Virus record (IMG/VR): IMGVR_UViG_3300023109_002988
Location: 34,533-98,532 of that record
DNA from: a virus
Strand: one strand, 5' to 3'
DNA: 64,000 nucleotides
Below the pieces are notes generated by a model. It was not told the DNA's origin. It saw only the letters and a program-made list of their open reading frames with translations, and did no database searches. The position numbers and the translations under genes were made by a program. Positions 9,140 to 61,069 of the stretch are shown one piece after another (the stretch's first letter is position 1; each line of letters begins with the position of its first letter).

Positions 9140-9141
9140 CA

Positions 9142-12100: not shown

Positions 12101-13851
12101 ACAATAAAATAGAAGACTCTACATTCTCTAATTGTGACTTTTTAACTGGGCTTAATTTAGTACCAAATATCACAGAAATTGGATCTAGCTCGTTTGCAAA
12201 TTGCGATATTTTAAGCGGAATTAACTTTAACGAAACTATTACCACCATTGGTAGTTCAGCTTTTAGTAGTTGCGTAGATTTAAGCGGTGTTAGCTTTCCA
12301 GATAGTATAGAGGATATCGGAAATAGTGCTTTTACTAACTGCTATGATTTGAGTTTTGTTGACTTTAGCCAAAATAGTAATTATGATACAATATCAACCT
12401 CTTGTTTTGAAAATTGCACATCTTTAACTAATGTTTTATTACCTGATAATGTAACTGAATTAGGTGGCTCTTGTTTCAAAGGCTGTACTAGTTTGGAATA
12501 TATAGATTTAAATATTTCTGTGGAATATATAGGAGCCAGTGCTTTTCGGGGTTGCTCTGTTTTTAACAACCTAGATCTGCCAAGTAGCTTACTTACTATA
12601 GCAAACGATGCTTTCAAGCTTTGCTATGAATTAAAGTCTATGAGTGTTTTTCCAGAAAACCTTGCATCTATAGGAGACGATGCTTTCAATTCTTGCGATC
12701 TATCTGGGTTTCAGTCAATTTTAACTATACCAGATAGTGTAACCTATATGGGACTAAGAGCTTTTCAAAATAATTCAGATAATTTAAGTGGTGTAGTTCT
12801 AGGGTCTGGTTTAACTAATCTTCGGTCTAGTGTTTTCCAAAATTGCACTAATCTAAGAGAAATAAATTTAGAAAATATAACATCCATAGAAAACAGCGCT
12901 TTCAAAAACTGCTTAAATTTAACTGGGGCTTTAATTCCGCCCAATATGCAGTCTATGGGAACCTCTGCTTTTGAAAATACAGCCATTGAAAGTATAATAA
13001 TACCAAACGCGATAACAGAAACAAGCACTACTTTGTGTTACTCTTCTTCGTTTTTAACTGGTATAATTTCAGGCTTAAATTTAATTACTATAGGCAACAG
13101 TTCTTTTTACGGATGTGGTGCTTTAAGTGAGTTTTATGCGGAAGATAATTTGAGAAAAATTAGTAGTAATGCGTTCTATAATTGTTCGTCAATGAGTGGT
13201 CTTGATTTAAATCAAATAACAGAATTGCAGACTAGTGCATTTAAAAATTGCGACTCTCTACCTGAGTTCCTAGAAATTCCAGATACTGTAACCGTAATGG
13301 GCACAAACATTTTTGAAGGTTGCACTAATACTACTGGTTTTTCTTGGACTTCTGGTTACAATAAAATACCAGCTGGCACATTTAAAGGATGTAATAATAT
13401 TCAAACTTTAGAAATACCAAGCTACATAACAGTAGTAGATGCAGAGGCTTTCATGAATTGCACTTCTATAAGCGGAGTAAGTTTTCCACAAGGAATACAA
13501 TATATAGGAGGATCGTTAAGAAACTATAATGCAGCCAATGGAGCATTTAAAGGATGCGTAGGAATAAGTGGAGAAATAATACTTCCTTCTTCATTGGAGC
13601 AATTGGGCCGTTATGCTTTCTATGACAGTAACCTTATAAGTACTTTTAAGTTTTATAGTACTACTGCTCCTCTTACAAGAGTAGACGCTTTTCCTGTAAA
13701 GTTTATCAACGACCCAAGTAATAATCCAATACACGCTCCTTCTGGGGCTGAAGCCAGTTATTCTGGACAAAGTTATGCTCCATCGTATAGCTATTACGGA
13801 GCTAAAAGCCCAGTTAATTGGGATTCTTTAAATATCATTTTTGATTTATGA
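9142..13851 (+). CDS. Tail-tube-like protein fused to a long BspA LRR domain
   Basis: The product has 1569 residues. Residues 1-330 look like a phage major tail (tube) protein, with an ordered beta-rich region and the segment AFLTNYSVDMSVGSLAKVNL, which matches the tube-family pattern of a 'loop-Y-S-aSVG-p-a' hairpin. Residues 345-420 form a linker with an acidic stretch (EEREDDNDYYP). Residues about 430-1520 are LRR_5 units like those of the preceding gene. The C-terminus (about 1530-1569) is Ser/Tyr-rich. The start is the ATG two bases after the upstream stop; no SD is visible. In lambda the tube protein gpV carries a small C-terminal Ig domain on the tail surface, so an LRR domain here would be a much larger equivalent. 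It could instead be a special distal tail ring, with the bulk tube protein encoded elsewhere. LRR assignment is certain; the tube assignment is likely. Confidence 0.75.
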   Translation: MPRNRTIYQSESVFVSNNLDSTDVWEHAEVARIQEASYGFSMNKTDVNQYGKSSRIDHINLELPTVNFDMSYLLGNGYNESVLGFDIKEGYQFAKYHLENNSGKNFYVLISEEGLDSKSLEVGDPYTLIGIGNAFLTNYSVDMSVGSLAKVNLQYECSNINSIHGVVEGEGFWLTQLSGDSASINIDKGIPYDKKIKITAPKGDIENIPTALRPGDITINFEGFDSENLSTISGNGSFHLQSANLSIPLSRSELKRLGSKGSYARVLDYPIKATLSVNSIVSNIEVVDLAESVRGCINNSLNNDISILAKDCNKENAIIWRLKNPDLLSENFSSNIGPNKSVDLTFEVEIGNPDDNSIGILCSGASDRDNEEREDDNDYYPTRVYGYDYTGSAAALEEGVFTGESNILLDWQTGDVIEEWKYNRLFTPWRVPKWGNLDFIKRIAPGGSTEYIGDDAFRNIKATGELYLTKNLTGIGTSVFENTNIDYLVVGDGLPKLPSRSFYDCDQLKTVKTADSITEIGDSCFAYSNKLNEFYFSKGLSGIGVGAFHTCSSLLKADLSGCNYLQSINDNTFNSCTSLEEVSLSDSILTLGDDSFKSCTSLTNFKWSSGLESVGDRSFNGCTSLLDPVFYDTLETIGDEAFSTCYSFDSVTIPGTVTYFGEYAFKTCGVKSLVLNEGLSEISYQAFYNCASLKSISFPETLLYINPYCFIYNYRLQNLNIPDNVSGIGNHAFYTCYSAATSQECLDVVNFGSGLKFIGEQAFYGNQSLRSADLPENIESIGYNAFFNCGLSGFVNLPDSLNSIGINAFDSNNYIESINIGAGLTTLSNNCFEECTSLSGVFIPDWFESLNDGVFLRCYDITTISLGNGIEYINDYAFGDCRSLTGIDIPSQITGIGNSAFQTGLNITNVGFVEGLEYIGNSAFANCYSLTGVSFPNTLSGIGSSSFSACSDLSGQIIYTPNLQSVGASAFLGTDIYDVVFNNHPSYNKIEDSTFSNCDFLTGLNLVPNITEIGSSSFANCDILSGINFNETITTIGSSAFSSCVDLSGVSFPDSIEDIGNSAFTNCYDLSFVDFSQNSNYDTISTSCFENCTSLTNVLLPDNVTELGGSCFKGCTSLEYIDLNISVEYIGASAFRGCSVFNNLDLPSSLLTIANDAFKLCYELKSMSVFPENLASIGDDAFNSCDLSGFQSILTIPDSVTYMGLRAFQNNSDNLSGVVLGSGLTNLRSSVFQNCTNLREINLENITSIENSAFKNCLNLTGALIPPNMQSMGTSAFENTAIESIIIPNAITETSTTLCYSSSFLTGIISGLNLITIGNSSFYGCGALSEFYAEDNLRKISSNAFYNCSSMSGLDLNQITELQTSAFKNCDSLPEFLEIPDTVTVMGTNIFEGCTNTTGFSWTSGYNKIPAGTFKGCNNIQTLEIPSYITVVDAEAFMNCTSISGVSFPQGIQYIGGSLRNYNAANGAFKGCVGISGEIILPSSLEQLGRYAFYDSNLISTFKFYSTTAPLTRVDAFPVKFINDPSNNPIHAPSGAEASYSGQSYAPSYSYYGAKSPVNWDSLNIIFDL

Positions 13852-20562: not shown

Positions 20563-21531
20563 ATGGAGTACGATTTTTCAGAACAAGCAAAAACCTTTTT
20601 AGAAAGCCAGTCAGCAAAAAGACCAGGACCAAAAGGTTCGGCTCAAACACCTGCTAAAAAAAGCGAAAAAAAAGAAGGTTCTAGCAAAAACGAGAAGGGT
20701 AGTGCTGGTAAAGATGGTAAAAAAATAACGTTTTCTGATAAAGTTATTTCTGCTTTGCAAACAAAAGTTAAAGAACATAACGAAAAACACTCCAAGAAAG
20801 TTACTCTTGCTCAACTTAAAAAAGTATATCGTAGAGGTGCTGGAGCATTTAGTTCTAGTCACAGACCTGGAATGACTAGGGGTCAATGGGCGATGGCTAG
20901 AGTAAATACTTTTCTGAAAATGGCTAGAGGCGGTAAGGTTAAAAAATCTTACAAAGCTGCTGACAGCGATATTGCAAAAGGTTCTGAAGAATACTATCTT
21001 GAAAAACAAGGTGATGCTTTCTGGGACTTCGAAGAAATTGAATTTCAACTAGCAAAAATTGATCTATTAAAAGCTGGCATTGAAACTTGGGAACAAGACC
21101 AAGAAGCTGAAGAGCTTGAGTTCTCTGAAGCTGAGAAAAAAACCTTGAACAAACCTTTTAGATTAAAGGGTGGCAAAAAAAAGTTCGGAGTATATGTAAA
21201 AAATCCTAAAACTGGCAACGTAGTTATGGTTAAATTTGGTGATCCTAACATGGAAATCAAAAGAGATGATCCTGATCGTCGTCGTAGTTTTAGAGCCAGA
21301 CATAAATGCGATAGCGCAAAAGACAAAACCACACCTCGTTACTGGTCTTGTAAGATGTGGAGCAAAAAGCCTGTTAATAAATCTGTTTCTTCTGAAGCTC
21401 TTGAGTGGGATGACGAAGAAGCTGTTAGCGAGTGGGGTTGGGATGAGTCCTCTGTTATCGAAAACGATGATTATTTTAAAGGCTACGATCATTTAAAAGA
21501 TTGTGAAATAATTGAAAACGATGATGTTTGA
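20563..21531 (+). CDS. Phage protein with DUF5872-like and FRARHKC/SCKMW motifs
   Basis: The 322-residue protein starts with a helix, then a Lys/Glu/Ser-rich disordered stretch (about 20-55). Residues about 60-125 (LAQLKKVYRRGAGAFSSSHR, then RGQWAMARV) look like the DUF5872-type domain known from phages and giant viruses. Residues about 205-270 hold VYVKNPKTGNVVMVKFGDP and a cysteine-containing FRARHKCDSAKDKTT…YWSCKMW motif that recurs in many marine phage proteins of unknown role. The C-terminus is strongly acidic. I recognise the motifs but not a function. A DNA-associated or structural role is only a guess. It follows nrdA by 38 bases. Confidence 0.6.
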   Translation: MEYDFSEQAKTFLESQSAKRPGPKGSAQTPAKKSEKKEGSSKNEKGSAGKDGKKITFSDKVISALQTKVKEHNEKHSKKVTLAQLKKVYRRGAGAFSSSHRPGMTRGQWAMARVNTFLKMARGGKVKKSYKAADSDIAKGSEEYYLEKQGDAFWDFEEIEFQLAKIDLLKAGIETWEQDQEAEELEFSEAEKKTLNKPFRLKGGKKKFGVYVKNPKTGNVVMVKFGDPNMEIKRDDPDRRRSFRARHKCDSAKDKTTPRYWSCKMWSKKPVNKSVSSEALEWDDEEAVSEWGWDESSVIENDDYFKGYDHLKDCEIIENDDV

Positions 21532-21544
21532 TTTATGATCCTTT

Positions 21545-22297
21545 ATGGATCTAAAACCCAAGATATCATTCTGCATTATCTCTAATGGGAAACGCCCTAG
21601 AGAACTAAGGCTTTCAGTTAAATCTATAGAAAGCAACTTCTATATAAAAGACGACTATGAGATTATCATTGTTGGGGATAACATAGATCAATTTAAAGAT
21701 CTTGACGTTAAACTTGTAGAGGATAATAAGTATAATAAATACCTAGGTGCTAGAAAAAACATAGGTACAAAAAACTCTAATGGAAACATAATAGTTCATT
21801 GCGATGATGATGTTATCTTTACTAAAGACTGGTTCTTCAAGCTGGAAGAATACCACAGTAAAAACCCAGAGTGGGAAGTTCTAGGCAATAAGATATTTCT
21901 TCCAGATGGCGGCAGGTATTATGATAGAGCTATATATTTACCAAGACACAAGATGGTGCCTTACGATTTTGATGAGACTGTTGACCCGCACACATTACTT
22001 TACCAGTGCGGAGCCTTCTCTGTGTGTAAAAGATCACTTCTTGATAAGGTAGAGTGGAGTAATGAGATTCCCTTCTACGGGAAACTAAATGGTTTCGATT
22101 ACAACGAGGACGTAGACTTTTCTGTTAAGCTTAAAGAAGCTGGAATTAGAATAAGCTTTGACGAAAACAATACTGTTTGGCATTATGATCACAGTTACTA
22201 TTACAAAGACTGGTTTGCATACAAAAAGAAACCAGAAGAAATGAACGAAAATAAGTGTCTTGATTTCATAATGCTTTTAAACTTTTTAGATAAATGA
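21545..22297 (+). CDS. Family 2 glycosyltransferase
   Basis: The 250-residue GT-A enzyme has the first strand KISFCIISNGKRPRELRLSV, then YLGARKNIGTKNSNGNIIVH and a metal-binding CDDDV (DxD-like) at about 88-92. The segment GFDYNEDVDFSVKLKEAGIR matches the ED catalytic-base motif of GT2 enzymes. It transfers a sugar from a nucleotide donor to an unknown acceptor. It is the first gene of the glycan cassette; its stop overlaps the GT6 start by four bases. Confidence 0.85.
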   Translation: MDLKPKISFCIISNGKRPRELRLSVKSIESNFYIKDDYEIIIVGDNIDQFKDLDVKLVEDNKYNKYLGARKNIGTKNSNGNIIVHCDDDVIFTKDWFFKLEEYHSKNPEWEVLGNKIFLPDGGRYYDRAIYLPRHKMVPYDFDETVDPHTLLYQCGAFSVCKRSLLDKVEWSNEIPFYGKLNGFDYNEDVDFSVKLKEAGIRISFDENNTVWHYDHSYYYKDWFAYKKKPEEMNENKCLDFIMLLNFLDK

Positions 22298-22986
22298 AAG
22301 AAAAACAAAAAATAGGCTTTCTTGTTTTAGCTACCAATAAGTATACAAGATTTATTCCCGACTTAATAAAGGGGGCGGACGAGTTCTTTTTAAGAGATTA
22401 CGAAGTAGAGTACTTTATATTTACTGATGACAAAAGCTTAGATGTTGAGACACAGCGTAAAGTTCACCTCATAAATACAGAACACAAGCCTTGGCCATAT
22501 ATGCCAATGGCCCAGTATGGTATATTTCATTCAAACAAACAATCATTTGAAGATATGGATTATCTTTATTATTGTGATGCTGATATGCGGTTTTGCGATC
22601 ATGTCGGACCAGAAATACTCAGTGACAGAGTAGCCACTCAACACCCAGGTCTTTATGGGAGAAGGGGGACTCCAGAAACAAACCCTAACTCAACTGCTTA
22701 TGTTTCTATGTTTGAAAACATGCAGTATTTTGCTGGTGGATTCAATGGAGGTTCTCACGACGAATATATAAAGATGTGCAAGATATGCTATGAAAACATA
22801 GAGAAAGATTTCGAAAATGACATAACAGCGGTATGGCATGATGAAAGTCATATGAATAGGTATTTCATAGACAACCCTCCTACTAAAATATTGGACCCAG
22901 GATATTGTTATGGAGAGTCTTTGCGCCCACCATTTAAACCTAGGTTAATAGCCCTAGATAAAGACCACAAAGAAATAAGATCCTAA
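22294..22986 (+). CDS. Family 6 glycosyltransferase (ABO / alpha-1,3-Gal(NAc) transferase type)
   Basis: The 230-residue protein matches GT6 closely: YYCDADMRFCDHVGPEIL (DxD metal motif at D95-A-D97), HPGLYG, YFAGGFNGGS (145-154), then WHDESHMNRYFIDNPPTKIL and DPGYCYGE. These are the same blocks, in the same order, as in human ABO transferases (DHVGVEIL, MGGFFGGS, WHDESHLNKY). GT6 enzymes add Gal or GalNAc in alpha-1,3 linkage, typically to a galactose carrying alpha-1,2-fucose. Many bacterial GT6 proteins have NxN instead of DxD; this one keeps DxD, like the vertebrate enzymes. A phage GT6 is known from cyanophage P-SSM2. It has only the catalytic domain and no membrane anchor. Confidence 0.93.
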   Translation: MKEKQKIGFLVLATNKYTRFIPDLIKGADEFFLRDYEVEYFIFTDDKSLDVETQRKVHLINTEHKPWPYMPMAQYGIFHSNKQSFEDMDYLYYCDADMRFCDHVGPEILSDRVATQHPGLYGRRGTPETNPNSTAYVSMFENMQYFAGGFNGGSHDEYIKMCKICYENIEKDFENDITAVWHDESHMNRYFIDNPPTKILDPGYCYGESLRPPFKPRLIALDKDHKEIRS

Positions 22987-22987
22987 A

Positions 22988-23638
22988 ATGATTTCTATAT
23001 TATTGGCTGTTCATAATGGAGAAAAATATCTCCGTCAAAGTATTGATTCTGTAATTTCCCAGACATCTAAATCTTGGGAGCTGCTAATAGGTTTCAATGG
23101 TACGTCGGACTCATCTAAAAATATAGCAAAAGAATATAATGAACCAAGAATAAAATTGTTTGATTATGGAAAAGACAAAGGAAAAGCCAAAACATTAAAC
23201 AAATTAATAAAAGAAGCTAAATATGATTGGTGTGCAATTCAAGATGACGATGATTTATGGGAAAAACAAAAACTCGAAAAACAAATAAAACACAAAAAAG
23301 ATTACGATGTAATAGGTTCCTTTATAAAGTATATAGATGAAAAAGGTTTTATCATAGGAGGTCCAAATCTAGCGTCTAACCACGAAGACATAAAAGCAAG
23401 AAGTCTCTCAGGGGTAAATCAAGTAGCAAATTTAAGTGCAATATTTAAGAAATCTGCAGTATATTCAATTGGTGGTTGGGACGAAAATATAGATGGAATA
23501 GAAGATTACGACTTGTGGTTAAGACTTCTCAGGTGCAATTATAAATTTTTTAATGTACCAGAGTATTTATGTTTTCACAGGCTCCACAAAGAAAGTAATT
23601 TCAATACAAAAAAACAAGATGTAAGTAAAATATTATAA
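22988..23638 (+). CDS. Family 2 glycosyltransferase
   Basis: The 216-residue GT-A enzyme shows MISILLAVHNGEKYLRQSID, then SVISQT..SWELLIG, the metal motif QDDDDLW (about 79-85) and GIEDYDLWLRLL (about 175-186), the ED catalytic region. All are textbook GT2 features. Sugar and acceptor cannot be told. It starts two bases after GT6, with no SD. Lysine content is high, like its neighbours. Confidence 0.88.
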   Translation: MISILLAVHNGEKYLRQSIDSVISQTSKSWELLIGFNGTSDSSKNIAKEYNEPRIKLFDYGKDKGKAKTLNKLIKEAKYDWCAIQDDDDLWEKQKLEKQIKHKKDYDVIGSFIKYIDEKGFIIGGPNLASNHEDIKARSLSGVNQVANLSAIFKKSAVYSIGGWDENIDGIEDYDLWLRLLRCNYKFFNVPEYLCFHRLHKESNFNTKKQDVSKIL

Positions 23639-23643
23639 AAACA

Positions 23644-24336
23644 ATGATAACAATATGCATAACAACATTTAATAGGTGCGAAAGGACCATTAAATCATTT
23701 ATTTCTGTGGTTGATGATCCAAGAGTGTCAGAAATAGTTATTTGTGACGACTGCTCTGAAGATTTGATTTTCAAAAAACTAAAGCAGAAAATAGAAACGA
23801 TAAATAATGCTAAAATAAAACTTTTCAGAAACAAGGAGAACAAAGGGGCTTTTTTAAATAAGGTAGAATCAATAAAAAAATGTTCTAACGATTGGGTTGC
23901 ATTAATTGATTCTGATAATGAAATTGACATATCATATATAGATAACCTCCCAGAAAAGAAAGACAACAAAACTTTCTACTTTCCCTCTATAGCTGTTTGC
24001 TCTAGCCCCTATTTGAACTTCAGTGAATACGCTGGTATTTTTTTAGATAAAGATGCTTTTTGTCGTATTATAGATGGAGCTTTGGCAAATACTGGTAACT
24101 ATTTCTTTAATAGAAACACCTACTTAAAAGCTATAGAAAAAGAAAACAATTTAATAAACCCTTACGGCTTGTGTTCAGCTTACCCAGTTTGGTTGTGCTA
24201 TAAATACATAGAAAAATTTAAAGTTAAAGTTGTAGAAGGATTACATTATAAACATGGCTTAGGCAAAGATAGTTGGTACTTAGCAAATCAAAACAAGTCA
24301 CTCGGATTAATTAATTTCTTCAGAAGAAACATATAA
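23644..24336 (+). CDS. Family 2-like glycosyltransferase
   Basis: The 230-residue protein starts MITICITTFNRCERTIKSF, then VICDDCSED and RNKENKGAFLNKV, followed by a DxD-like DSDNEID at about 98-104. The first half is clearly GT2. The C-terminal half is divergent and lacks an obvious ED motif; HGLGKDSWYLANQNKSLGL near the end may be an acceptor-side helix. The substrate is unknown. It is part of the same operon, five bases after the previous gene. Confidence 0.8.
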   Translation: MITICITTFNRCERTIKSFISVVDDPRVSEIVICDDCSEDLIFKKLKQKIETINNAKIKLFRNKENKGAFLNKVESIKKCSNDWVALIDSDNEIDISYIDNLPEKKDNKTFYFPSIAVCSSPYLNFSEYAGIFLDKDAFCRIIDGALANTGNYFFNRNTYLKAIEKENNLINPYGLCSAYPVWLCYKYIEKFKVKVVEGLHYKHGLGKDSWYLANQNKSLGLINFFRRNI

Positions 24337-24340
24337 AATA

Positions 24341-24910
24341 ATGGCATACGGGAAAGAAAAAAAAACACACCTAGGTGGTTATATTATAAATATAACAGAT
24401 CACGGAGATCCTAATAGTTATGCTACCGAAGTCTGGGATGAAATGATCAGCGCTGGTATCAAATCTGTTTTAGATATAGGTTGTGGAGAAGGTCACTCCA
24501 CTAAATATTTTTTAAACAAAGGAATAAAGTGCATTGGCGTCGAAGGCGGAGAAATAGCGTATAACAACTCTCCAGTTAAAAACAATTTAGTTCTACACGA
24601 TTATACAGAAGGTCCTTTTGTGCCTATCGATAAATTTGATGCGGCTTGGTGTTGTGAATTTGTTGAACATGTAGATGAAAAATACTGTCAAAACTTTTTA
24701 GATAGCTTTTCCAAATGCGATTTCATATTTATGACACACGCAAACATTGGTCAAGAAGGCTATCATCATGTTAATTGTCAAAACTCTGAATATTGGATCG
24801 AAAAAATCGAAAAGATCGGGTTTCGTTTTTCTCCTGAAATGACAAATCACTATAAAAACTTTTCTCCACAATGTATGCATCTAAAAAACCTAATTGTATT
24901 TAAAAAATGA
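24341..24910 (+). CDS. SAM-dependent methyltransferase (class I)
   Basis: The 189-residue Rossmann methyltransferase has motif I SVLDIGCGEGHSTKYF (about 44-59), then an acidic strand end CIGVEGGE, and DAAWCCEFVEHV (motif IV region). It is similar to Methyltransf_11/23-type enzymes that modify sugars or lipids in polysaccharide clusters. The glycosyltransferase neighbours suggest O-methylation of a glycan, but the substrate is not shown. It overlaps the next gene by four bases. Confidence 0.8.
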   Translation: MAYGKEKKTHLGGYIINITDHGDPNSYATEVWDEMISAGIKSVLDIGCGEGHSTKYFLNKGIKCIGVEGGEIAYNNSPVKNNLVLHDYTEGPFVPIDKFDAAWCCEFVEHVDEKYCQNFLDSFSKCDFIFMTHANIGQEGYHHVNCQNSEYWIEKIEKIGFRFSPEMTNHYKNFSPQCMHLKNLIVFKK

Positions 24911-25419
24911 ATTTAGATACCGAAAGAATGACTGGCTTTGGTGCTTATAGCGTTGATGGATATGATGTGAATTATTTATTCGGTCTTCGGGATTTATGTG
25001 AAGATTTTCTATCTAATGAAAGTCATGTATTAGAGTTGGGTTGTAATGACGGAGTCAGTACAAGATTATTTTCTGAGTATGCCAATGAAGTTACAGCTGT
25101 TGACATCAACTTGACAAAAAAGTTCAAATCACTTTTAAATGATTCTGTTAATGTAAAATTTCACCATTTAGACTTCGATTTATTTTTTAAAAAAAATACC
25201 AATAAATATGATTTAATATATATAGACGGACCACATGATTACTCTTCAGTAAAAAGCCATATAGAAGATTGTAAAAAGATCATAAAAAAACACGGGGTGA
25301 TATGTGGTCACGATTACCACTCTAAAGTTGGTGTGATTGAAGCCGTTAACGAATCTTTTGGTAAAGAAAACATTAAAATTTACTCAGATAGTTCTTGGGC
25401 GGTAACGAATATAGTATGA
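24907..25419 (+). CDS. SAM-dependent methyltransferase (class I, MT_24-like)
   Basis: The 170-residue protein has motif I VLELGCNDGVSTRLFSE (about 41-57), the acidic AVDIN end of strand 2, and YDLIYIDGPHDYSSVKSHIE (about 100-119). It ends with GHDYHSKVGVIEAVNESF, a pattern of Methyltransf_24 enzymes from capsule and O-antigen clusters. It probably methylates a sugar of the product made by this cassette. The stop overlaps the start of the fucosyltransferase gene (ATGA). Confidence 0.8.
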   Translation: MNLDTERMTGFGAYSVDGYDVNYLFGLRDLCEDFLSNESHVLELGCNDGVSTRLFSEYANEVTAVDINLTKKFKSLLNDSVNVKFHHLDFDLFFKKNTNKYDLIYIDGPHDYSSVKSHIEDCKKIIKKHGVICGHDYHSKVGVIEAVNESFGKENIKIYSDSSWAVTNIV

Positions 25420-26186
25420 TAATTATTAAAATACATGGTGGTTTGTGTAACCAGCTTTTTCAGTGGGCTTATGGATATGCTTTATCAAAAGAGCATGAGG
25501 TTTATTTTGACACATCGTTTTTTAATAGTCAAGATATAATGTCTTCGGTATCTATCCGTGATTATGAATTACCCAATATAATCAACAGAGAAATACCAAT
25601 AGTTACAAAAGAAATCTTTGAGGATTTTTCATCTAAGAGCGTACAAATGGTTCTTGATAACTTTTACTACTCAAATATAAAATTCGAAAAAAATAAAAAT
25701 TATTATTTAAATGGATATTGGCAGTCGGATTTGTTTTTTAACAATGTGAAGCAGGAGATTGTTGATTCGTTTAAATTTCCAGAAGTTGAACATTTTGATT
25801 TTAAATACTCATGTTCAATACATATAAGAAGAGGGGATTATTTAAAGCTTAAAGGAATACATACACATCAGACTTTAGATTATTATGAGCAAGCTCTTGA
25901 TGTTATAAAACCTAAGGGTAAAGTGTTTGTTTTTTCTGATGATATAGAATGGTGTGAGAAAAATCTAAACTTCGAAAACCAGGTATTTATGAAAGGTAAT
26001 TCTAACGTTAAAGATCTTAGACTCATGAGTTTGTGTTCTAACAATATAATGGCTAACAGTAGCTTTAGTTGGTGGGGAGCTTATTTAAACAATAATCCAA
26101 ACAAAATTGTTGTCTGTCCTAAAAATTGGTTTGGTAACAATACCAATGACTCCGATATCAAAATGAAAGATTGGCTGGAAATATAG
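25416..26186 (+). CDS. Alpha-1,2-fucosyltransferase (GT11)
   Basis: The 256-residue product has the GT11 signatures: N-terminal IHGGLCNQLFQWAYGYALS, HIRRGDY (donor-binding motif I, near 137-143), FVFSDDIEWCEKNL, and CSNNIMANSSFSWWGAYLN near the C-terminus. GT11 enzymes, including bacterial FutC/WbnK and animal FUT1/2, add fucose in alpha-1,2 linkage to galactose. I use the ATG at 25416, which overlaps the upstream stop, rather than the in-frame ATG at 25395, since the family begins at this strand. With GT6 upstream and Gmd downstream it completes an ABO(H)-like enzyme set. Confidence 0.93.
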   Translation: MIIIKIHGGLCNQLFQWAYGYALSKEHEVYFDTSFFNSQDIMSSVSIRDYELPNIINREIPIVTKEIFEDFSSKSVQMVLDNFYYSNIKFEKNKNYYLNGYWQSDLFFNNVKQEIVDSFKFPEVEHFDFKYSCSIHIRRGDYLKLKGIHTHQTLDYYEQALDVIKPKGKVFVFSDDIEWCEKNLNFENQVFMKGNSNVKDLRLMSLCSNNIMANSSFSWWGAYLNNNPNKIVVCPKNWFGNNTNDSDIKMKDWLEI

Positions 26187-26200
26187 ATGATTTGTTTTAT

Positions 26201-26206
26201 TATATT
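26201..26206 (+). promoter_or_regulatory. -10-like box (TATATT) directly before gmd
   Basis: TATATT ends five bases before the gmd ATG, in the 25-base gap after the fucosyltransferase gene. No good -35 is seen. It fits the spacing seen at other unit starts in this window. Confidence 0.35.
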
Positions 26207-26211
26207 TTGAT

Positions 26212-27240
26212 ATGAGTAAAGTAATTATAACAGGAGTAACGGGACAAGATGGTAGCCACATGGTTGATTATTTATTGGCTAATACTGACATTGATGTAAT
26301 TGCTGGTGTTCGTAGGCTTTCGGTTAAAAATCACGAAAACATTAAACACTTGTCAGACAACTCGCGGTTTAAATTGATCGATCTTGATATCACAGACCAG
26401 TCAAATGTAGATCGTGTTATAGCTAAAGAAAAACCAGACTTCTTTATTAACTTTGCTGCCAATTCATTCGTAGGAGTTAGTTGGGATATGCCAGAAAACC
26501 ACATGAATACAAATTGCATGGCGGTTCTTTATCAATTGGAAGCTATACGCAAGCACTGTCCAGATTGCCGTTATTACAATGCTGGTTCATCCGAAGAGTT
26601 TGGTAACGTAGTTACTGTCCCACAGGACGAGACTCACCCACTGCGCCCTAGAAGCCCTTACGGAGCATCTAAAGCTGCTGCAAGACATCTAGTTAAAGTT
26701 TGGCGTGAAAGTTACAATTTATACGCTATTCAAGGTTGGCTATTTAATCACGAAGGAACAAGAAGGGGTGAGGAATTTCTTACCCGCAAAGTCACTAAAG
26801 GCGTCGCCAAAATTGTACAGCAGATCAGAGAGGGTAAAACGCCCACACCCATTGAGCTTGGCAATCTAGAAGCAAAAAGAGATTGGTCAGATGCAGAGGA
26901 TTTTGTGGATGGCATTTGGTTGATGCTTAACCAAGAAGAGCCGAAAGAATATGTATTAGCCTCTGGTGAGACATATACTATTCGTGAGTTCGTAGAGGCC
27001 GCTTTTGGCTTTGCTGGGTTTGGTGCAGAAGAGTGTCATTGGGATGGTCAAGGTGTTGACCAAAAATATATTCACGGAGATCAAGTGCTTGTAACAATTA
27101 ATCCAAAATACTATCGACCAGCTGAAGTTAACTTATTGCTTGGTGATCCTAGTCTTGCAGAAAAGGAAATGGGTTGGGTAAGAAAAACCGACTTTTATGG
27201 CTTAGTAAAAAAGATGGTTGACAAAGATATTAATCTTTGA
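26212..27240 (+). CDS. gmd: GDP-mannose 4,6-dehydratase
   Basis: The 342-residue short-chain dehydrogenase-type enzyme has the NADP-binding GVTGQDGSH (8-16), then NFAANSFVGVSW, the catalytic GSSEEFG, YGASKAA (Tyr/Lys pair), and LFNHEGTRRGEEFLTRK, which is diagnostic of Gmd. It converts GDP-mannose to GDP-4-keto-6-deoxymannose, the precursor of GDP-fucose, GDP-rhamnose and related sugars. The reductase step (Fcl/WcaG) is not in this window and may come from the host or elsewhere in the phage. Placement right after the GT11 gene argues that the final donor is GDP-fucose. Gmd is known in some cyanophages. Confidence 0.95.
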   Translation: MSKVIITGVTGQDGSHMVDYLLANTDIDVIAGVRRLSVKNHENIKHLSDNSRFKLIDLDITDQSNVDRVIAKEKPDFFINFAANSFVGVSWDMPENHMNTNCMAVLYQLEAIRKHCPDCRYYNAGSSEEFGNVVTVPQDETHPLRPRSPYGASKAAARHLVKVWRESYNLYAIQGWLFNHEGTRRGEEFLTRKVTKGVAKIVQQIREGKTPTPIELGNLEAKRDWSDAEDFVDGIWLMLNQEEPKEYVLASGETYTIREFVEAAFGFAGFGAEECHWDGQGVDQKYIHGDQVLVTINPKYYRPAEVNLLLGDPSLAEKEMGWVRKTDFYGLVKKMVDKDINL

Positions 27241-27252
27241 TACTATCAACCT

Positions 27253-27711
27253 ATGCCCAGAGGAAAGAAACAATGTCCCGAATGCTCTTTGGAGTTTGGG
27301 GCAAGAAAATCCGTGTGCGATTGCGGCTACATATTTTCTAAGGCGGTTAAGAAAACCCCTAAAATCAAAACAGAGAAGAAAATAAACAAGCGCGAAATAC
27401 TTTTTCGCCTTGTCGAAAAACCCAAGGAAAACAAAAGGTTTTTCTTCATGAGGGAAATGAAATTTCTCAACGACCTTAGTAGTCGTTATTCTCTTGAGTT
27501 TCTTGGTGTTGTCACTTTTCCTAAAAAGTTTAAGTCCCTAGCTTACTTGGTTAGCCCTAAACTAAAGGGTACCATGGATATAAAATGGAGAGCTTTCAAT
27601 TACAAGGTTGACAAAAGTAAATATGAAGAGTACAATATAGGAGAAAAGATTGGACAAGATATAAACATACCTAGGCAAATTAAAACAACAAAAGATTTTT
27701 TAAATGAGTGA
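27253..27711 (+). CDS. Zinc-ribbon hypothetical protein
   Basis: The 152-residue protein opens with a compact zinc ribbon, CPECSLEFGARKSVCDCGY (cysteines near 8, 11, 22 and 24). A lysine-rich linker follows, then a 90-residue domain (KKINKREILFRL…RFFFMREMKFLNDLSSRY) that I cannot place. Its stop overlaps the recA start by eight bases. It might be a nucleic-acid-binding accessory of recombination or replication, but that is inferred from position only. Confidence 0.55.
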   Translation: MPRGKKQCPECSLEFGARKSVCDCGYIFSKAVKKTPKIKTEKKINKREILFRLVEKPKENKRFFFMREMKFLNDLSSRYSLEFLGVVTFPKKFKSLAYLVSPKLKGTMDIKWRAFNYKVDKSKYEEYNIGEKIGQDINIPRQIKTTKDFLNE

Positions 27712-28822
27712 TACAACAAATTCAAGCAACCTATTGGAAAGCTTTCTGAAAGCTAATAAACAAGATCATTACAATTTCGAAGAAGAAATTGATTATAAAA
27801 TATCAAGCGGATCACTTCAATTTGATCTGCACCTTGGAGGAGGTTTTGGTCCTGGACTGCACCGATTCTGTGGAATGAATGAAGGCGGAAAAACCTCCGA
27901 AGCTTTAGAGGTTACTAAAAACTTTCTATTAACACTTCCTAATTCCAAGGGTGTTTATTTTAAAGCTGAAGGTCGACTTTCTCCAGAAATGAAAAAAAGA
28001 TCTGGTGTTAAGTTTGTAACTAAAACTGAAGATTGGGTCGAAGGCACTTGCTTTGTATTTGAATCAAACATTTACGAAACAGTCGTAGATCTAATGAGGC
28101 AATTGGTCTCAAACAACGATGAAAAAACCAAGTATTGTTTCCTCCTTGATTCTGTAGATGGTCTCATCCTAAGGAACGATGTAGACAAATCTTTTGAGGA
28201 TTCATCGAAGGTCGCTGGTGGCGCTGTTGTAGCGGGTACATTTATGAAGAAGATGTCAATTGCTCTAGCTAAAAGAGGACACATGGCAATATTTATATCG
28301 CAAGTCAGGGCTGACATTAAGTTGGATCCTTACAGTAAAGTTCCTATTAGACAAACAAGTGCAACTGGAGGTAATGCACTTCTTCACTTTGCTAATTGGA
28401 TTATTGAGTTTGAGGCTAGATATAATAAAGACATGATTCTTAAGAACCCATCCATTAAGAAAATGGACGCTCAAAAGAATCCAGCAGTTGGTCATTATGC
28501 AAGTGTAACAATTAAAAAGTCTCCTAATGAAAAAACCAATACAAGACTAACATATCCTGTTCGTTACGGCAGGACAGCTGGAACATCTATTTGGATCGAG
28601 AAAGAAATAGTTGACCTGTTATTTGCTTGGGAATTTCTAGTTAAAAAAGGTTCGTGGATTAAGACTACGGAAGACTTCGTGGAACTTCTTTCTGAGAATA
28701 GTCTTGAGTTCCCAGAAAAAATCCAGGGCGAATCTAATGTATTTAAAGCTATTGAGAATGATGGTGATCTCTCTGCTTTTCTTGTTGACTACTTCAAAAA
28801 AGCTATAGGTGAATTAACATGA
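27704..28822 (+). CDS. RecA/UvsX-family recombinase
   Basis: The 372-residue protein follows the RecA core order. It has SGSLQFDLHLGGGFGPG before the P-loop GMNEGGKTS (57-65), the catalytic glutamate in YFKAEGRLSP, CFLLDSVDGL (Walker B), then IFISQVRADI and ATGGNALLHFANWII (loop L2 region, compare TTGGNALKFYA in RecA). It would coat ssDNA and catalyse strand exchange for phage recombination-dependent replication and repair. The P-loop departs from the bacterial GPESSGKTT. The C-terminal 60 residues replace the RecA C-domain. It sits at the head of the replication operon and overlaps the next gene by four bases. Confidence 0.88.
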   Translation: MSDTTNSSNLLESFLKANKQDHYNFEEEIDYKISSGSLQFDLHLGGGFGPGLHRFCGMNEGGKTSEALEVTKNFLLTLPNSKGVYFKAEGRLSPEMKKRSGVKFVTKTEDWVEGTCFVFESNIYETVVDLMRQLVSNNDEKTKYCFLLDSVDGLILRNDVDKSFEDSSKVAGGAVVAGTFMKKMSIALAKRGHMAIFISQVRADIKLDPYSKVPIRQTSATGGNALLHFANWIIEFEARYNKDMILKNPSIKKMDAQKNPAVGHYASVTIKKSPNEKTNTRLTYPVRYGRTAGTSIWIEKEIVDLLFAWEFLVKKGSWIKTTEDFVELLSENSLEFPEKIQGESNVFKAIENDGDLSAFLVDYFKKAIGELT

Positions 28823-33005: not shown

Positions 33006-33038
33006 CATAAATATACTTTTGTGATATCATTATCACAA
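33002..33038 (+). promoter_or_regulatory. Consensus promoter with 20-bp operator palindrome before the PHP gene
   Basis: TTGACA (33002-33007) and TATCAT (33025-33030) are exactly 17 bases apart, an almost perfect sigma-70 promoter. The palindrome TTGTGATA-TCAT-TATCACAA (33019-33038) covers the -10 box and runs into the ATG. The predicted transcription start falls at or next to the ATG, so the mRNA would be leaderless, and the palindrome is an ideal repressor site. Confidence 0.75.
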
Positions 33039-33748
33039 TGAAGCCCATATTCAAATCAACTTATTCAATAGGTAAAAGTATACTAACTATTGAAGAAATC
33101 ATTAATATATGTAAGGACAAAAATTTTAAAAACCTCACTCTTGTTGAGGACAACCTTACTAGTTTTATGAAGGCGTTTCACGCTTGTCACAAAAACGACA
33201 TAGATCTTACATATGGCCTTAGGATTACTATGTGCAATTCTTTAGATAGTAAAGACTCTGATCACAAGTCTGTTATATTTGCTTTGGATGATAATGGGTG
33301 TAAGTTGATGAATAAAATTTATTCTAAAGCTTTTGTTGATAATGATGGTCGTATTACTTATGAAGAACTCAAGTCTTTTTGGGACAACAAGTCTCTTTGT
33401 TTTGTTGTTCCGTTTTATGATAGCTTTATTCATCAGAATAATTTATTTCTCAAGAATTGCATACCTGAACTTGATGGTTTGAATCCTAGGTTTTGGGTTG
33501 AGAACAACAACTTACCTTATGATCGCCTTATTTGTCAAAAAGTTCTAGAGTATGCGGAAGACTGTTATGATATTAGTCATGTTAAGTCTATATACTATAA
33601 GAACAAAGAAGATGTGGAAGCTCTTCAGACATATAAGATTCTTTGTAATAGAAGCTTTGGTAGACAAGCGACATTGTCGTGTCCTAACTTAAGTCACTTT
33701 GCTAGTGACGAGTTTTGCTTTGAATCATATATAGAAAATACTAAGTAA
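33038..33748 (+). CDS. Separate PHP domain of DNA polymerase III alpha (degenerate)
   Basis: The 236-residue protein aligns by pattern with the PHP domain that normally forms the N-terminus of DnaE/PolC: STYSIGKSILTIEEIINICK, then FKNLTLVEDNLTSFMKAFHA, then IDLTYGLRI. Near the end, VKSIYYKNKEDVEALQTYKI and DEFCFES match the end of the DnaE PHP region. The metal-binding His/Asp residues (HxH, TDH) are absent, so phosphoesterase activity is unlikely and a structural role with the polymerase core is implied. Exonuclease and polymerase genes follow with 1- and 4-base overlaps. I see no other family that fits as well. Confidence 0.75.
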   Translation: MKPIFKSTYSIGKSILTIEEIINICKDKNFKNLTLVEDNLTSFMKAFHACHKNDIDLTYGLRITMCNSLDSKDSDHKSVIFALDDNGCKLMNKIYSKAFVDNDGRITYEELKSFWDNKSLCFVVPFYDSFIHQNNLFLKNCIPELDGLNPRFWVENNNLPYDRLICQKVLEYAEDCYDISHVKSIYYKNKEDVEALQTYKILCNRSFGRQATLSCPNLSHFASDEFCFESYIENTK

Positions 33749-34380
33749 TGAATAACGATTTATTAAGATACAACAGAAATCAAAAGTATATAATTTTTGA
33801 TACAGAGACAGAGGGTTTGAATTTGGTTAAATCAAAACCTTGGCAAGCGGCTTGGATTGTAGCTCAGGGTAACAAAATAATCAAGAAGTATGATAAGCTT
33901 ATATATTGGGATGATTTAAATGTATCAAAAGACGCTGCAAGAATAACTGGTTTTAGCCAGTCTTACTACGATAAGAATGCTGAAGACCCGAAGAAGGTGT
34001 GGGCTGAATTTTCTAAGTACTTATATGACGACTCATATAAGATAGTTGGTCAAAACTTATTAGGTTTTGATGTTTACATGATAGACGTTTGGAGAAAACT
34101 TATTGGTCAGCCTTTACTGCAGGATTACATAAACAGAATTATTGACACAAAAGCGATAGCTACAGCTATTGCTAAAGAGTCTCCTGTACCCAATCATGAT
34201 TTTATCTATTGGCAGTATAGATGGCTCAACTATAGAGAGAGAGGTTTAAAAACATCTCAATTAACACTTTTAAAAAAATATGAGATTGACTTTGATGCTA
34301 AAAGATTGCATGATGCTCTTTACGATATTGAAATGAACTTCGAAATATTCCACAAACAACTTTACGATATAGAACTATGA
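33748..34380 (+). CDS. DnaQ-like DEDDh 3'-5' exonuclease (proofreading subunit)
   Basis: The 210-residue protein has the three Exo motifs: IIFDTETEGL (Exo I, D and E), VGQNLLGFDVYMID (Exo II, D), and KRLHDALYDIEMNFEIF (Exo III, H-x4-D), giving DEDDh. This is the epsilon-type proofreading nuclease. It lies between the PHP and polymerase-core genes, with TAATG and ATGA overlaps, so the three are made together. In Gram-positive PolC the exonuclease is likewise inserted next to the PHP domain, so the gene order here mirrors a PolC domain order cut into separate proteins. Confidence 0.88.
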   Translation: MNNDLLRYNRNQKYIIFDTETEGLNLVKSKPWQAAWIVAQGNKIIKKYDKLIYWDDLNVSKDAARITGFSQSYYDKNAEDPKKVWAEFSKYLYDDSYKIVGQNLLGFDVYMIDVWRKLIGQPLLQDYINRIIDTKAIATAIAKESPVPNHDFIYWQYRWLNYRERGLKTSQLTLLKKYEIDFDAKRLHDALYDIEMNFEIFHKQLYDIEL

Positions 34381-36920
34381 GATATAAAACCCCATTTCCT
34401 GTAGGAGTTAAACTCCCAGAGATCAGTGTTCCCGACTCAAAGCTACATGATCTAGAACTAGAGCCTGGCGCTTCTTCTTTAGATATTCTTAAACAGCTTT
34501 GTCGACAAGGCCTCAGGGATAAAGGTCTTGTTAAAGCTGGCAACAGAAAAGATTATTATGATCGCACCCAGATGGAGATTGAAATCTTGAATGATCTAGG
34601 TTTTGTAGATTATATACTACTAAACTGGGATATTATGAATTTCTGCAAAGAGAATAAGATTCCAACTGGTGCTGGCAGGGGAAGTGCGGCTGGTAGCTTA
34701 GTGCTTTTTCTTTTAGGTGTAACAAATATTGACCCAATTAAATATGAACTATTTTTCGAAAGATTCGTCTCCAAAAGCAGAGCAAGGAAAATATTTCACG
34801 ATGGTGAAGTACTTCTTGACGGCTCTTTACTTGCTGATATTGATAATGACATCTCTTATGATAGGAGGGCTGAAGTTATTAAGTATATTGAAGATAAATA
34901 CGAAGGCAAAACTTCCAAAATTTTAACTCTAAATACGCTAAGTTCTAAGCTTTGCATGAAGGAGTGTGGCAAAATCGTTGGCGAGTTGTCTGAAATGGAT
35001 GTAAATCAAATCAGTGACACTATACCCAAGCACTTTGGAAAGGTAGCGAAGCTAGATGTGGCTTATGAGGAAAGCGAATCTTTTAAAAAGTTTGCAGATC
35101 AGCATAAAAAATCATACAAAATTGCAAAAAAACTAGAAGGATTAATTAAGAACACTGGTGTTCACCCTTCTGGGATATCAATTAGTTATTTTAGTCAAGG
35201 AGACATTATGCCCTTGCAAAAAACTAACGATGGAGCTTTAGTTTCTGGTTATGACATGGATGATGTAGCTAGCCTTAGTGTTAAGTTCGATATTCTTGGT
35301 CTGAGGACGCTTTCCGTGGTTAATGATACATGTAGTCAAATTGGAATCAAAGCTTCTGAGATCGATCCTGGTCACGAAAGCATCTATGCTGCATTGGCTT
35401 GTCTTGAACAGCCAAAAGGATTATTTCAGATTGAAGCGGATACAAACTTCAAGGTGTGCAGACAGATAGCTCCCAAAAGCTTAGAGGAGTTGTCTGCTGT
35501 TGTGGCTATTGCTCGTCCAGGAGCTTTAGACTTTAAGGACAGGTATGCTGACTACGCCAGAACTGGAGACTTCCAATCGGTTCATGAGTTCTTTGATGAC
35601 ATACTTAGTTATACTGGTGGTATTCCGCTTTACCAAGAGCAGTTGATGAAGATGGCTGTGAAGGTTGGCTTCAGCTTGGACGAGTCAGAGCAGTTAAGGC
35701 GTATCGTCGGCAAAAAGAAGGTTGAAGATATGCCAGCATGGAAGGCAAAGATTGAAGACAAAATCAAAGAAAAGAATTTAGATCCTGTTATCGGAGAGGT
35801 GTTGTGGAAAGTCGCAGAAGATTCTGCTAACTATTCATTTAACAAATCCCACAGTATTTCTTATGCTTATCTAGCTGCGATCACGGTTTACCTTAAATTC
35901 AATCACCCCCAAGAGTTTTTCTTGAGTCTACTTAAGATGTCTAGGTTTGAGCCTAATGCTCACGAAGAAATAGCCAAAATCTCTCAAGAGTTATCTTTCT
36001 TTGATATTAAGCTTTTACCTCCAGACTTAAACCTTTCTGATTTTGATTTTAAGATTGAAGGAAAAAATATTCGTTATGGACTTAATTCTATTAAAGGTGT
36101 TTCTGACAAAGTCATAGAGTCTCTTATAGATTTTAGAGAGTCAAGATTTGAAAATAAATACGACATATTTATTGCAGCAAAAGACTGTGGGGTAAACATT
36201 GGAACAATGTCTGCCTTCATACAAGCAGGACTGCTTGACTCTTTCGTTTCTTCAGACCGTTGTCGATTGGTGTTGGAGGCTCAGAGTTTTAACATATTAA
36301 CTGACAGAGAAAAAAGAAATCTCATAGAGCTTGGTCCTAAGTTTGACTTTGACATTTTAAAAACAATACACAGTTGCAGGTCCGAAAATACACCAGCTGA
36401 TGATGGAAGAGTTCTTTTTGCCGATAGAAGGTTTAATACTTTTAAGAAGAAGTATGATCCATATAAAAACATCTACGAACAAAACTCTAGCCACATAAAG
36501 TTTGCGAATTGGTACTTCGAAACAAAACTTCTTGGATATAGTTATTCATACAATATCAGAGAAATATTTGTTAGTGGAGACGAAGCTTCCTTCAAAACGT
36601 CAGAGGAAGTCAGAAACTCAGAAGAAAGAAAACGGGTCAAGTTTGTTGGGGATGTCACTGAAGTGACTAAGAGAACAAGCAGAAACGGTAATAAATATGC
36701 TAGAGTTGAGCTACAAGATGAGTTAGGTTCTGTTTGTGGTTTATTTTTAGACTCAGATAGAGAAGAAAGGTTGACAGAATACCTAAACTCTGGTAAAAAG
36801 TTACCTAAGAAGGGTAGCATTGCCATAATAACAGGTAGTGTAGGACAAGATATAGTTTTCATTGATAAAATTGAAACTATAGAAGAAAAAATCTATATGA
36901 AACTTTCTGAAATAAAATGA
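34377..36920 (+). CDS. dnaE: DNA polymerase III alpha catalytic core (DnaE-type, without PHP)
   Basis: The 847-residue protein is a C-family polymerase core. It has TGAGRGSAAGSLVLFLLGV (about 97-115), the catalytic pair D154/D156 in ADIDND, the third aspartate D305 in KFDILGLRTL, and PLYQEQLMKMAVKVGF followed by RRIVGKKK and NYSFNKSHSISYA. The last 400 residues hold the helix-hairpin-helix region (YGLNSIKGVSDKV…) and an OB-fold (FVGDVTEVTKRTSRNGNKYA…). The usual N-terminal PHP is missing and is encoded two genes upstream. About 14 residues are inserted just before the catalytic aspartates relative to E. coli DnaE, a feature I associate with phage-type DnaE. No clear clamp-binding motif was found. 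Confidence 0.93.
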   Translation: MRYKTPFPVGVKLPEISVPDSKLHDLELEPGASSLDILKQLCRQGLRDKGLVKAGNRKDYYDRTQMEIEILNDLGFVDYILLNWDIMNFCKENKIPTGAGRGSAAGSLVLFLLGVTNIDPIKYELFFERFVSKSRARKIFHDGEVLLDGSLLADIDNDISYDRRAEVIKYIEDKYEGKTSKILTLNTLSSKLCMKECGKIVGELSEMDVNQISDTIPKHFGKVAKLDVAYEESESFKKFADQHKKSYKIAKKLEGLIKNTGVHPSGISISYFSQGDIMPLQKTNDGALVSGYDMDDVASLSVKFDILGLRTLSVVNDTCSQIGIKASEIDPGHESIYAALACLEQPKGLFQIEADTNFKVCRQIAPKSLEELSAVVAIARPGALDFKDRYADYARTGDFQSVHEFFDDILSYTGGIPLYQEQLMKMAVKVGFSLDESEQLRRIVGKKKVEDMPAWKAKIEDKIKEKNLDPVIGEVLWKVAEDSANYSFNKSHSISYAYLAAITVYLKFNHPQEFFLSLLKMSRFEPNAHEEIAKISQELSFFDIKLLPPDLNLSDFDFKIEGKNIRYGLNSIKGVSDKVIESLIDFRESRFENKYDIFIAAKDCGVNIGTMSAFIQAGLLDSFVSSDRCRLVLEAQSFNILTDREKRNLIELGPKFDFDILKTIHSCRSENTPADDGRVLFADRRFNTFKKKYDPYKNIYEQNSSHIKFANWYFETKLLGYSYSYNIREIFVSGDEASFKTSEEVRNSEERKRVKFVGDVTEVTKRTSRNGNKYARVELQDELGSVCGLFLDSDREERLTEYLNSGKKLPKKGSIAIITGSVGQDIVFIDKIETIEEKIYMKLSEIK

Positions 36921-40809: not shown

Positions 40810-41268
40810 ATGCAATTTTACAAACCAAACTCTCAAAACACGGGTACTGCATTCGGATTTAGGATTGGCACTCAAGGCAAGACAGAAAAACCTTGTCTTT
40901 ACATGACTGCAGTTAAACAATTCTCTTGGGATGCCAAGAAGAGGAGCGGATCATTTTCTGGTAACGCCAAAAATCCAGATAAGTGTGCCATCGTTAAGTT
41001 TAATGAGTTTGAAATAGGTGGTTTTATATACGCAATAGAAAACTACGATAAATTTAGCGCCTTTCATAGCTTCGATGATAACAAGACGGGTATATCGTTG
41101 AACCCTTACTCTAAGAAAGATGGCACCAAAGCCTACTCTTTCACCGTGACAAGAAACTCTTCCAATAAATTCGGCATGGGTATTGAAATGTCAGAGGCTT
41201 ATGCACTATGCCAATACTTCAAGTACGTTCTAAACGAAACTTTTAAGTTTAATCCTATCTCAAAATAA
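40810..41268 (+). CDS. Hypothetical protein, possible ssDNA-binding (PC4/Whirly-like) fold
   Basis: The 152-residue protein is built of alternating beta strands (FGFRIGTQGKTEKPCLYMTA, then GSFSGNAKNPDKCAIVKFNE) followed by a C-terminal helix (MSEAYALCQYFKYVLNETF). That layout of a curved sheet with a closing helix resembles PC4/Whirly-type ssDNA-binding proteins found in some phages. This is a fold guess, not a family match. The stop overlaps the next start by one base (TAATG). Confidence 0.45.
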   Translation: MQFYKPNSQNTGTAFGFRIGTQGKTEKPCLYMTAVKQFSWDAKKRSGSFSGNAKNPDKCAIVKFNEFEIGGFIYAIENYDKFSAFHSFDDNKTGISLNPYSKKDGTKAYSFTVTRNSSNKFGMGIEMSEAYALCQYFKYVLNETFKFNPISK

Positions 41269-43127: not shown

Positions 43128-43128
43128 A

Positions 43129-58876: not shown

Positions 58877-59661
58877 TGAGTCACAGTCCTAAATCTCCAC
58901 CTTTAGCAAAAGCAACCGCTGATCTTCCAGATGTTGAAGACGGTGTGTTGGCTTATGATACCACACAGGGGAAGCCAGTAGCTAGATTAGCTGGTGTTTG
59001 GTCTGAGATCGCTGGCGAGGTTTTTGGAACACCTACTGTAGTATATGATGATGGTGCTGGTATTGGTAATACAGACCAAATCCAAGGTGATATACCATAC
59101 AGCTGGAAAAGATATGACACATCTTTAAAAGGATTGGTTATTGGAAATTCTTGCACTAGAATTCCAAAATTTGCTTTTGAAGGTTGCACTGGCTTGACTG
59201 GTTCTTTAGTCATCCCAGATAGTGTTACTTATATTAATGACAATGCTTTTGCTTTCTGTCAAGGTTTTGACGGGCGATTAACTCTTAGTGACAACCTCCT
59301 TAGAATTGGATATCAAGCTTTTAGATCAAATTCATCGTCGCAGATGATTTATACTGGAGAACTTATTGTTAATGCTGAAATATTAGGCGGTCAATGCTTC
59401 TATGGATTAGGTATAACGAATTTAACAATAGGGGAAAAATTAAAAACTATAGAAGGAAATTCTAACTTTTCGTATTGCATGAACTTGACTAATGCAAATT
59501 GTTACGTTACAAAAGACGTAATAGACCAAGAAAGCGCTGGCATGTTTGAACTTACTTCACTCTCGACATTCCACGTTCGTTCTACCGACAACACTTGGAC
59601 AGCTGGTCCTAATCAGACTATTGGGTTAAAAACAGGTGTCCTCGTAATTAAAGATTTATAA
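58876..59661 (+). CDS. LRR tail-fibre protein, paralogue 1
   Basis: The 261-residue protein has a conserved N-terminal module (SHSPKSPPLAKATADLPDVE…AYDTTQGKPVARLAGVW), a bridge (DQIQGDIPYSWKRYDTSLKG), then about five BspA-type LRRs (AFEGCTGLTGSLVIPDSVTY…). The conserved C-terminal cap is TFHVRSTDNTWTAG…VLVIKDL. The 60262 and 61070 proteins share both ends but have different LRR cores. The N-module resembles phage tail proteins that attach to fibres or collars. The LRR cores are probably the exchangeable binding part. It links to the two giant LRR proteins at the window start. Confidence 0.8.
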   Translation: MSHSPKSPPLAKATADLPDVEDGVLAYDTTQGKPVARLAGVWSEIAGEVFGTPTVVYDDGAGIGNTDQIQGDIPYSWKRYDTSLKGLVIGNSCTRIPKFAFEGCTGLTGSLVIPDSVTYINDNAFAFCQGFDGRLTLSDNLLRIGYQAFRSNSSSQMIYTGELIVNAEILGGQCFYGLGITNLTIGEKLKTIEGNSNFSYCMNLTNANCYVTKDVIDQESAGMFELTSLSTFHVRSTDNTWTAGPNQTIGLKTGVLVIKDL

Positions 59662-59675
59662 TATAAAAAAACAAA

Positions 59676-60260: not shown

Positions 60261-60261
60261 T

Positions 60262-61068: not shown

Positions 61069-61069
61069 T

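Follow-up and report, generated by a model that had tools for sequence, protein, structure and literature searches.

A hypervariable glycan gene island with GT11 and GT6 glycosyltransferases beside the Gmd and UvsX genes of an uncultured phage lineage

The subject of this analysis is a run of glycan genes in IMG/VR virus record IMGVR_UViG_3300023109_002988 (98,532 bp in all), studied in a 64-kb window that spans bases 34533-98532 of the record and whose own numbering is used below. The run holds genes for a GT6 and a GT11 glycosyltransferase, a Gmd-like dehydratase, three GT2 glycosyltransferases and two methyltransferases, all of them Pfam-annotated open reading frames lying almost contiguously on one strand (+), as do the flanking genes named here. 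To the left is a backbone gene of the DUF5824 family (20563-21531, Pfam PF19141), and after it come the first GT2 gene (GT2a, 21545-22297, PF00535, E 3.7e-9), the GT6 gene (22294-22986), two further GT2 genes (GT2b at 22988-23638 and GT2c at 23644-24336, matching PF00535 at 5.6e-25 and 2.6e-13), the methyltransferase genes MT1 (24341-24910, Methyltransf_11, 2.7e-7) and MT2 (24907-25419, Methyltransf_24, 1e-13), and the GT11 gene of the alpha-1,2-fucosyltransferase family (25416-26186, with its ATG at 25416). Two backbone genes follow, namely the Gmd-like gene (26212-27240) and a UvsX-like recombinase gene (27704-28822; PHROG 97, 8.3e-34). The family matches of the GT6, GT11 and Gmd-like genes are far beyond chance. 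An earlier note on this DNA had read the genes as a self-contained pathway for a glycan of the ABO(H) blood-group type, new to phages; its gene calls, including those of the three GT2 enzymes and two methyltransferases beside GT6 and GT11, stand, and its order of enzyme action is plausible, but the novelty and the self-contained pathway do not hold (see below).

Much of this run is a unit that close relatives have exchanged for other genes. With the DnaB of the window as query, a scan brought up 40 loci from this phage lineage (related loci carry L numbers here). Nucleotide homology to close relatives stops at the 3' end of the DUF5824 gene, near 21539. On the right, L420, L421, L423 and L447 begin to align with the window again at 26195-26212, either right on the Gmd start codon (26212) or immediately ahead of it, which puts the swap zone at 21540-26211 (+). 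On the left, L423 aligns up to 21516 and L420 to about 21539, and L447, with the first GT2 gene retained, aligns up to 22296; L018 and L098 also retain GT2a. The genes found between these borders are those of a sulfotransferase, a sugar transferase, LicD and a methyltransferase in L447, of a GT2, a GT15-like enzyme and a GT25 in L420, and of a UDP-GlcNAc 2-epimerase and a GT2 in L423. At this site L430, a more distant relative, encodes an NTP transferase, a HAD protein and an FkbM methyltransferase. Unrelated sets of glycan genes thus occupy one site in the related backbones of these four loci and the window, and the site is a hypervariable glycan island. Recent exchange is marked by a recombination tract shared by the window and L098, a 2.5-kb block containing GT2c, MT1, MT2 and GT11 (window 23632-26174, L098 4700-7243), which is 93% identical in nucleotide sequence within flanks of 73-79% identity. 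Base composition gives no clear island border, no RNA families were found in the island region, and promoter-like sites there are not commoner than in shuffled sequence.

The Gmd-like gene at the right border belongs to the backbone beside UvsX and is not a member of the cassette, as the earlier note had assumed. Every DnaB-lineage locus with at least 1.8 kb of sequence upstream of UvsX has a window-type Gmd directly upstream of UvsX (27/27), and GT6 together with GT11 is found in 1/18 of those with at least 6 kb. Because Gmd stays constant beside UvsX in relatives that lack GT6 and GT11, we place it outside the cassette; gene neighbourhood alone is misleading here, since the gene that adjoins the island is part of the backbone. 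The swap zone with its constant Gmd border is a better finding than the cassette first proposed, and it is a new case of something known. Glycan genes have been described in variable regions of related marine phages, including pelagimyophages, cyanomyophages and metaviromic islands (PMC7029224, PMC3909814), from which the present site differs in belonging to a siphovirus-like lineage and in being a compact swap zone of 4-8 kb that adjoins UvsX and is bordered by a constant Gmd.

The Gmd-like protein matches Pfam GDP_Man_Dehyd (E 2.4e-105) and its relatives in the PDB are Gmds, but its 328 bits fall short of the 415-bit cut-off of the NCBIfam gmd equivalog (TIGR01472), and we therefore call it Gmd-like where the earlier note had called it Gmd. 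In its catalytic set a Ser replaces the usual Thr, with the Glu and YGASK retained, and it falls in a divergent phage clade with the motif GSSEE. This GSSEE-motif clade is fixed next to UvsX in the window and about 40 IMG/VR loci. Counting Fcl at more than 200 bits, a threshold that a divergent Fcl could escape, Fcl lies near Gmd in 8/44 loci of the divergent clade versus 45/63 loci of viral Gmds that carry the usual motif. The 98,532-bp record, which may be incomplete, yielded no Fcl; three models of the short-chain dehydrogenase/reductase (SDR) type match Gmd alone. L018 and L098 have an extra SDR gene between GT11 and Gmd, which was considered as an Fcl and rejected as GalE-like, and the window lacks this GalE-like gene. 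In addition, the Gmd of chlorovirus PBCV-1 also yields GDP-D-rhamnose (PMC5408694), and for this reason the product of the window enzyme should not be assumed to serve GDP-fucose synthesis only.

These results bear on the pathway first proposed for the locus, in which Gmd would be the dedicated first step in making GDP-fucose for an ABO(H)-type glycan. The GT6, GT11 and Gmd genes are indeed all present and close together, and in the relatives L019 and L020 Fcl adjoins Gmd, GT11 and GT6, so that such a complete set does occur. In the window, the constancy of Gmd in relatives without GT6 or GT11 largely refutes a link between Gmd and this allele, the enzyme falls under the equivalog cut-off, and, with no Fcl found on the record, the idea that the phage holds the whole logic of the pathway is not supported. 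We consider this proposal improbable.

The two transferases themselves are as first described, profile searches placing the gene at 22294 in GT6 and that at 25416 in GT11. The GT6 protein matches Pfam Glyco_transf_6 (PF03414) over residues 3-229 (E 4.9e-48, 164 bits against a cut-off of 25) and also PHROG 3317, and its matches in the PDB include BoGT6a (5e-43) and the human blood-group transferase GTA (7e-39). It aligns with human GTA from end to end, with DAD at residues 95-97 in place of DVD, E184 opposite the catalytic Glu, K223 and R229 opposite the C-terminal pair of GTA and BoGT6a, and H117 and W181 at acceptor-site positions. The roles of the catalytic Glu and of the acceptor-site His and Trp are established for the GT6 family. 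Those of the DXD motif, the Lys and the Arg are described in PMC3961637. The predicted model (pLDDT 93.8) superposes on human GTA with a template-modelling (TM) score of 0.94, indicating a GT-A fold. The activity expected of a GT6 enzyme would be the addition of alpha1,3-linked Gal or GalNAc to galactose or fucosylgalactose. The triad A-G-G aligns with L266-G267-G268 of GTA and recurs in BoGT6a, whose donor is UDP-GalNAc (PMC3961637); judged from this shared triad, GalNAc (A-type) is most likely the better guess for the donor. The window enzyme differs from the human ABO enzymes in having no membrane anchor, and from BoGT6a in having DXD where that enzyme has NXN. The bacterial GT6 proteins nearest to it come from metagenome-assembled genomes of Dependentiae and Chlamydiae (L340-L364) and are also of the DXD type, while most other bacterial GT6 proteins examined carry NXN rather than DXD. 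The Dependentiae and Chlamydiae proteins were considered as a clue to the host and dropped, as they form a separate bacterial clade.

The GT11 protein matches Pfam Glyco_transf_11 (PF01531; E 1.1e-31, 110.6 bits against a cut-off of 23.9) and PHROG 2644. It has the motif HIRRGDY, in which H136, R138, R139 and D141 are invariant across the phage alignment. A sequence search found no solved GT11 relatives; the predicted model (pLDDT 93.1) has NodZ, POFUT and FUT1 as its nearest solved folds, at TM scores of about 0.5 or lower, NodZ and POFUT being GDP-fucose enzymes. Since both transferases match PHROG families, GT6 and GT11 were already known from phages.

The distribution of the two genes supports the idea that their enzymes work together. 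The viral sample comprised the best 80 relatives of the window GT6 in IMG/VR, with more than 400 further relatives left out, and 2 new loci that a second scan added. These loci, none much longer than 20 kb, were searched with profiles from alignments made in this analysis. GT11 was present in 87% of the 70 GT6 loci of at least 14 kb, and, once the viral GT6 proteins were clustered (70% identity, window included), 24/30 clusters had a GT11 no more than about 10 kb away, as against 6/65 Gmd loci without GT6 that had a GT11. Bacterial genomes had GT11 in 27/53 GT6 clusters, the two genes often being neighbours (25/42 pairs within 200 bp). The reverse association is weak: of the GT11 loci that are 14 kb or longer, 19% have GT6. 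Such a one-way association is what one would predict for a GT6 that depends on the GT11 product. At the Gmd-UvsX site, 47 loci had at least 4.5 kb upstream; this set has some redundancy, L018 and L421 being the same contig. Five of these loci (4 distinct, window included) had both GT6 and GT11, none had GT6 only, 2 had GT11 only (one came from a GT11 scan and the other matches weakly, at 67 bits), and 40 had neither. L300 has its own GT11 in the same slot, together with a GT6 that is 35% identical to that of the window and belongs to another clade; this is a second GT6+GT11 combination in the lineage. These data suggest, as the earlier note had proposed, that GT11 and then GT6 act in order on one acceptor, in the manner of ABO(H) synthesis.

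The explanation that we favour, with a probability of roughly 0.6, is that the segment 21545-26186 is one allele of the hypervariable island in an uncultured siphophage-like lineage, inserted between the DUF5824 gene and the constant Gmd-UvsX block, and that its GT11 and then its GT6 cap a glycan that ends in galactose. In this model the GT2 enzymes would make the underlying chain, the soluble GT11 would add Fuc-alpha1,2 to the terminal galactose, and the metal-dependent GT6 would next attach a sugar in alpha1,3 linkage, with GalNAc (A-type) the likeliest, while MT1 and MT2 would supply methyl caps. The constant Gmd would supply a GDP-6-deoxysugar for any allele that occupies the site rather than for this one in particular, and the missing donor steps (Fcl, GalE) would come from the host. 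The data directly show the identities of the genes, the borders of the island, the swapping of alleles and the co-occurrence of GT6 with GT11, while the acceptor order, the donor sugar, the host supply and the target are inferred.

Several points weigh against this explanation. With no Fcl on the record and a divergent Gmd, the supply of GDP-fucose is unproven. Related GT6 enzymes use galactose without fucose, so the acceptor is not fixed by sequence. Finally, in the GT25 islands of cyanophages the association is gone, GT11 being present at 29/38 loci with GT6 and 13/17 without it, because GT11 is common there anyway. This last result would fit a rival idea, that each of the two enzymes has an acceptor of its own and that they share loci simply because transferases accumulate in glycan islands, as would the four other genes that part GT6 from GT11 in the window. 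Outside the GT25 islands, however, GT11 accompanies GT6 in 19/25 clusters, and both the close bacterial pairs and the lack of any Gmd-UvsX locus with GT6 alone weigh against the rival. We therefore think it doubtful that the two enzymes are unrelated in function.

The host envelope is a somewhat likelier target for the glycan than the virion, at a little under even odds. The slight lean toward the envelope comes from analogy with E. coli O86, where soluble GT11 and GT6 enzymes act in this way, and from the diversity of alleles, which could mirror the diversity of host glycans. Two Pfam models were tried in search of a flippase or initiating transferase and neither found one, which argues that the island enzymes probably act on a lipid-linked or lipopolysaccharide (LPS) acceptor of the host or on phage proteins. 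The latter possibility, in which proteins of the capsid or tail would be glycosylated directly by the enzymes in the cytoplasm, is a close rival that we rate only a little below the envelope. No membrane segments are predicted in any of the island enzymes, chloroviruses glycosylate their virions with their own transferases and GDP-sugar enzymes (PMC5408694), and a passage of PMC12619734 cites glycosylated capsid and tail-tube subunits in mycobacteriophages. Yet the island lies among replication genes rather than structural ones, no protein-linking transferase was identified, and the island contents also resemble genes for LPS and capsule decoration. The same position beside replication genes might instead point to glycosylation of the phage DNA as a defense against restriction, and hypermodification of DNA by phage transferases is likewise cited in PMC12619734. 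This reading was rejected and is very improbable, as no hydroxymethylase of the thymidylate-synthase type was found on the record. To our knowledge, no GT6 or GT11 acts on DNA.

The pairing of GT11 with GT6 is present in many sequenced ocean phages and is not new, contrary to the earlier note; 71 phage records match the window GT6 and 102 match the window GT11. Cyanophage P-SSM2 (AY939844.2, PSSM2_257-271), a T4-like phage of Prochlorococcus that the earlier note itself mentioned for its GT6, has Gmd, Fcl, two GT2 enzymes, GT11, GT6 and a GalE-like epimerase in one 11-kb cluster. It resembles the window in clustering Gmd, GT2, GT11 and GT6 in a tailed phage, with a GT6 that is 43.5% identical, and differs in having its own Fcl, GalE-like epimerase and GT25; in the window no Fcl was found and no photosynthesis genes were seen. 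Our literature search found no paper on the P-SSM2 GT6, though its annotation is public. Two Synechococcus phages are similar: ACG-2014f has Gmd, GT11 and GT6 in one gene run, and DSL-LC02 has Gmd with two neighbouring transferases whose alignments assign them to GT11 and GT6, GT11 lying directly upstream of GT6 rather than 2.4 kb downstream as in the window. Both differ from the window in also having Fcl. The Fcl proteins of these three phages score 420-462 bits against an Fcl cut-off of 500, far above any other family. Another cyanophage, S-SCSM1, is reported to encode an alpha-1,2-fucosyltransferase along with Gmd and GDP-L-fucose synthase (PMC9602691).

More distant parallels exist in bacteria and in a eukaryotic virus. 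In E. coli O86, WbnK and WbnI act as GT11 and then GT6 on one glycan. The O-unit there is assembled sequentially (PMC4506291). The two genes belong to a bacterial polysaccharide locus that has a lipid-linked unit of its own, and no such unit was recognised in the window. PBCV-1 likewise has a virus-encoded Gmd and glycan enzymes (PMC5408694), but it is a eukaryotic virus with both Gmd and GMER and an established capsid glycan.

Several other features of the window deserve mention. A second glycosyltransferase group at 41268-44289, with a GT4-like protein that has a weak DUF4214 match and a GT9-like protein, may add to the island glycan. Three consecutive BspA-type leucine-rich repeat (LRR_5) proteins at 58876-61705, unusual in a phage, are possibly adhesins. 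At 33038-36920 a DnaE-type Pol III alpha gene is preceded by an exonuclease-like gene and a separate PHP-like gene (the latter recognised by eye), possibly a split polymerase. Very large open reading frames occupy 11-9139 (3042 aa), 9142-13851 (1569 aa) and 47392-52239 (1615 aa) in this record of less than 100 kb, and L003 has one of 3351 aa (700-10755). Assignment of a host by way of the terminase, Pol III alpha or tRNAs was dropped: the large terminase subunit has phage matches only, at about 27% identity over less than half its length, the phage relatives of Pol III alpha are only 27-28% identical, and the 64-kb window has no tRNAs.

The one-way co-occurrence makes a sequential GT11-GT6 pathway testable, and phages with a matched GT11 and GT6 offer a convenient supply of soluble enzymes for making blood-group-like glycans. 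With its constant Gmd neighbour, the swap zone also invites a comparison of surface glycans between phages that are alike except at this site. It is tempting, though quite tentative, to view the whole as a serotype-like antigen locus, in which a constant GDP-sugar enzyme next to UvsX serves a swap zone with one ABO(H)-like allele, and by which near-identical phages, or the cells they infect, may come to bear different surface glycans.

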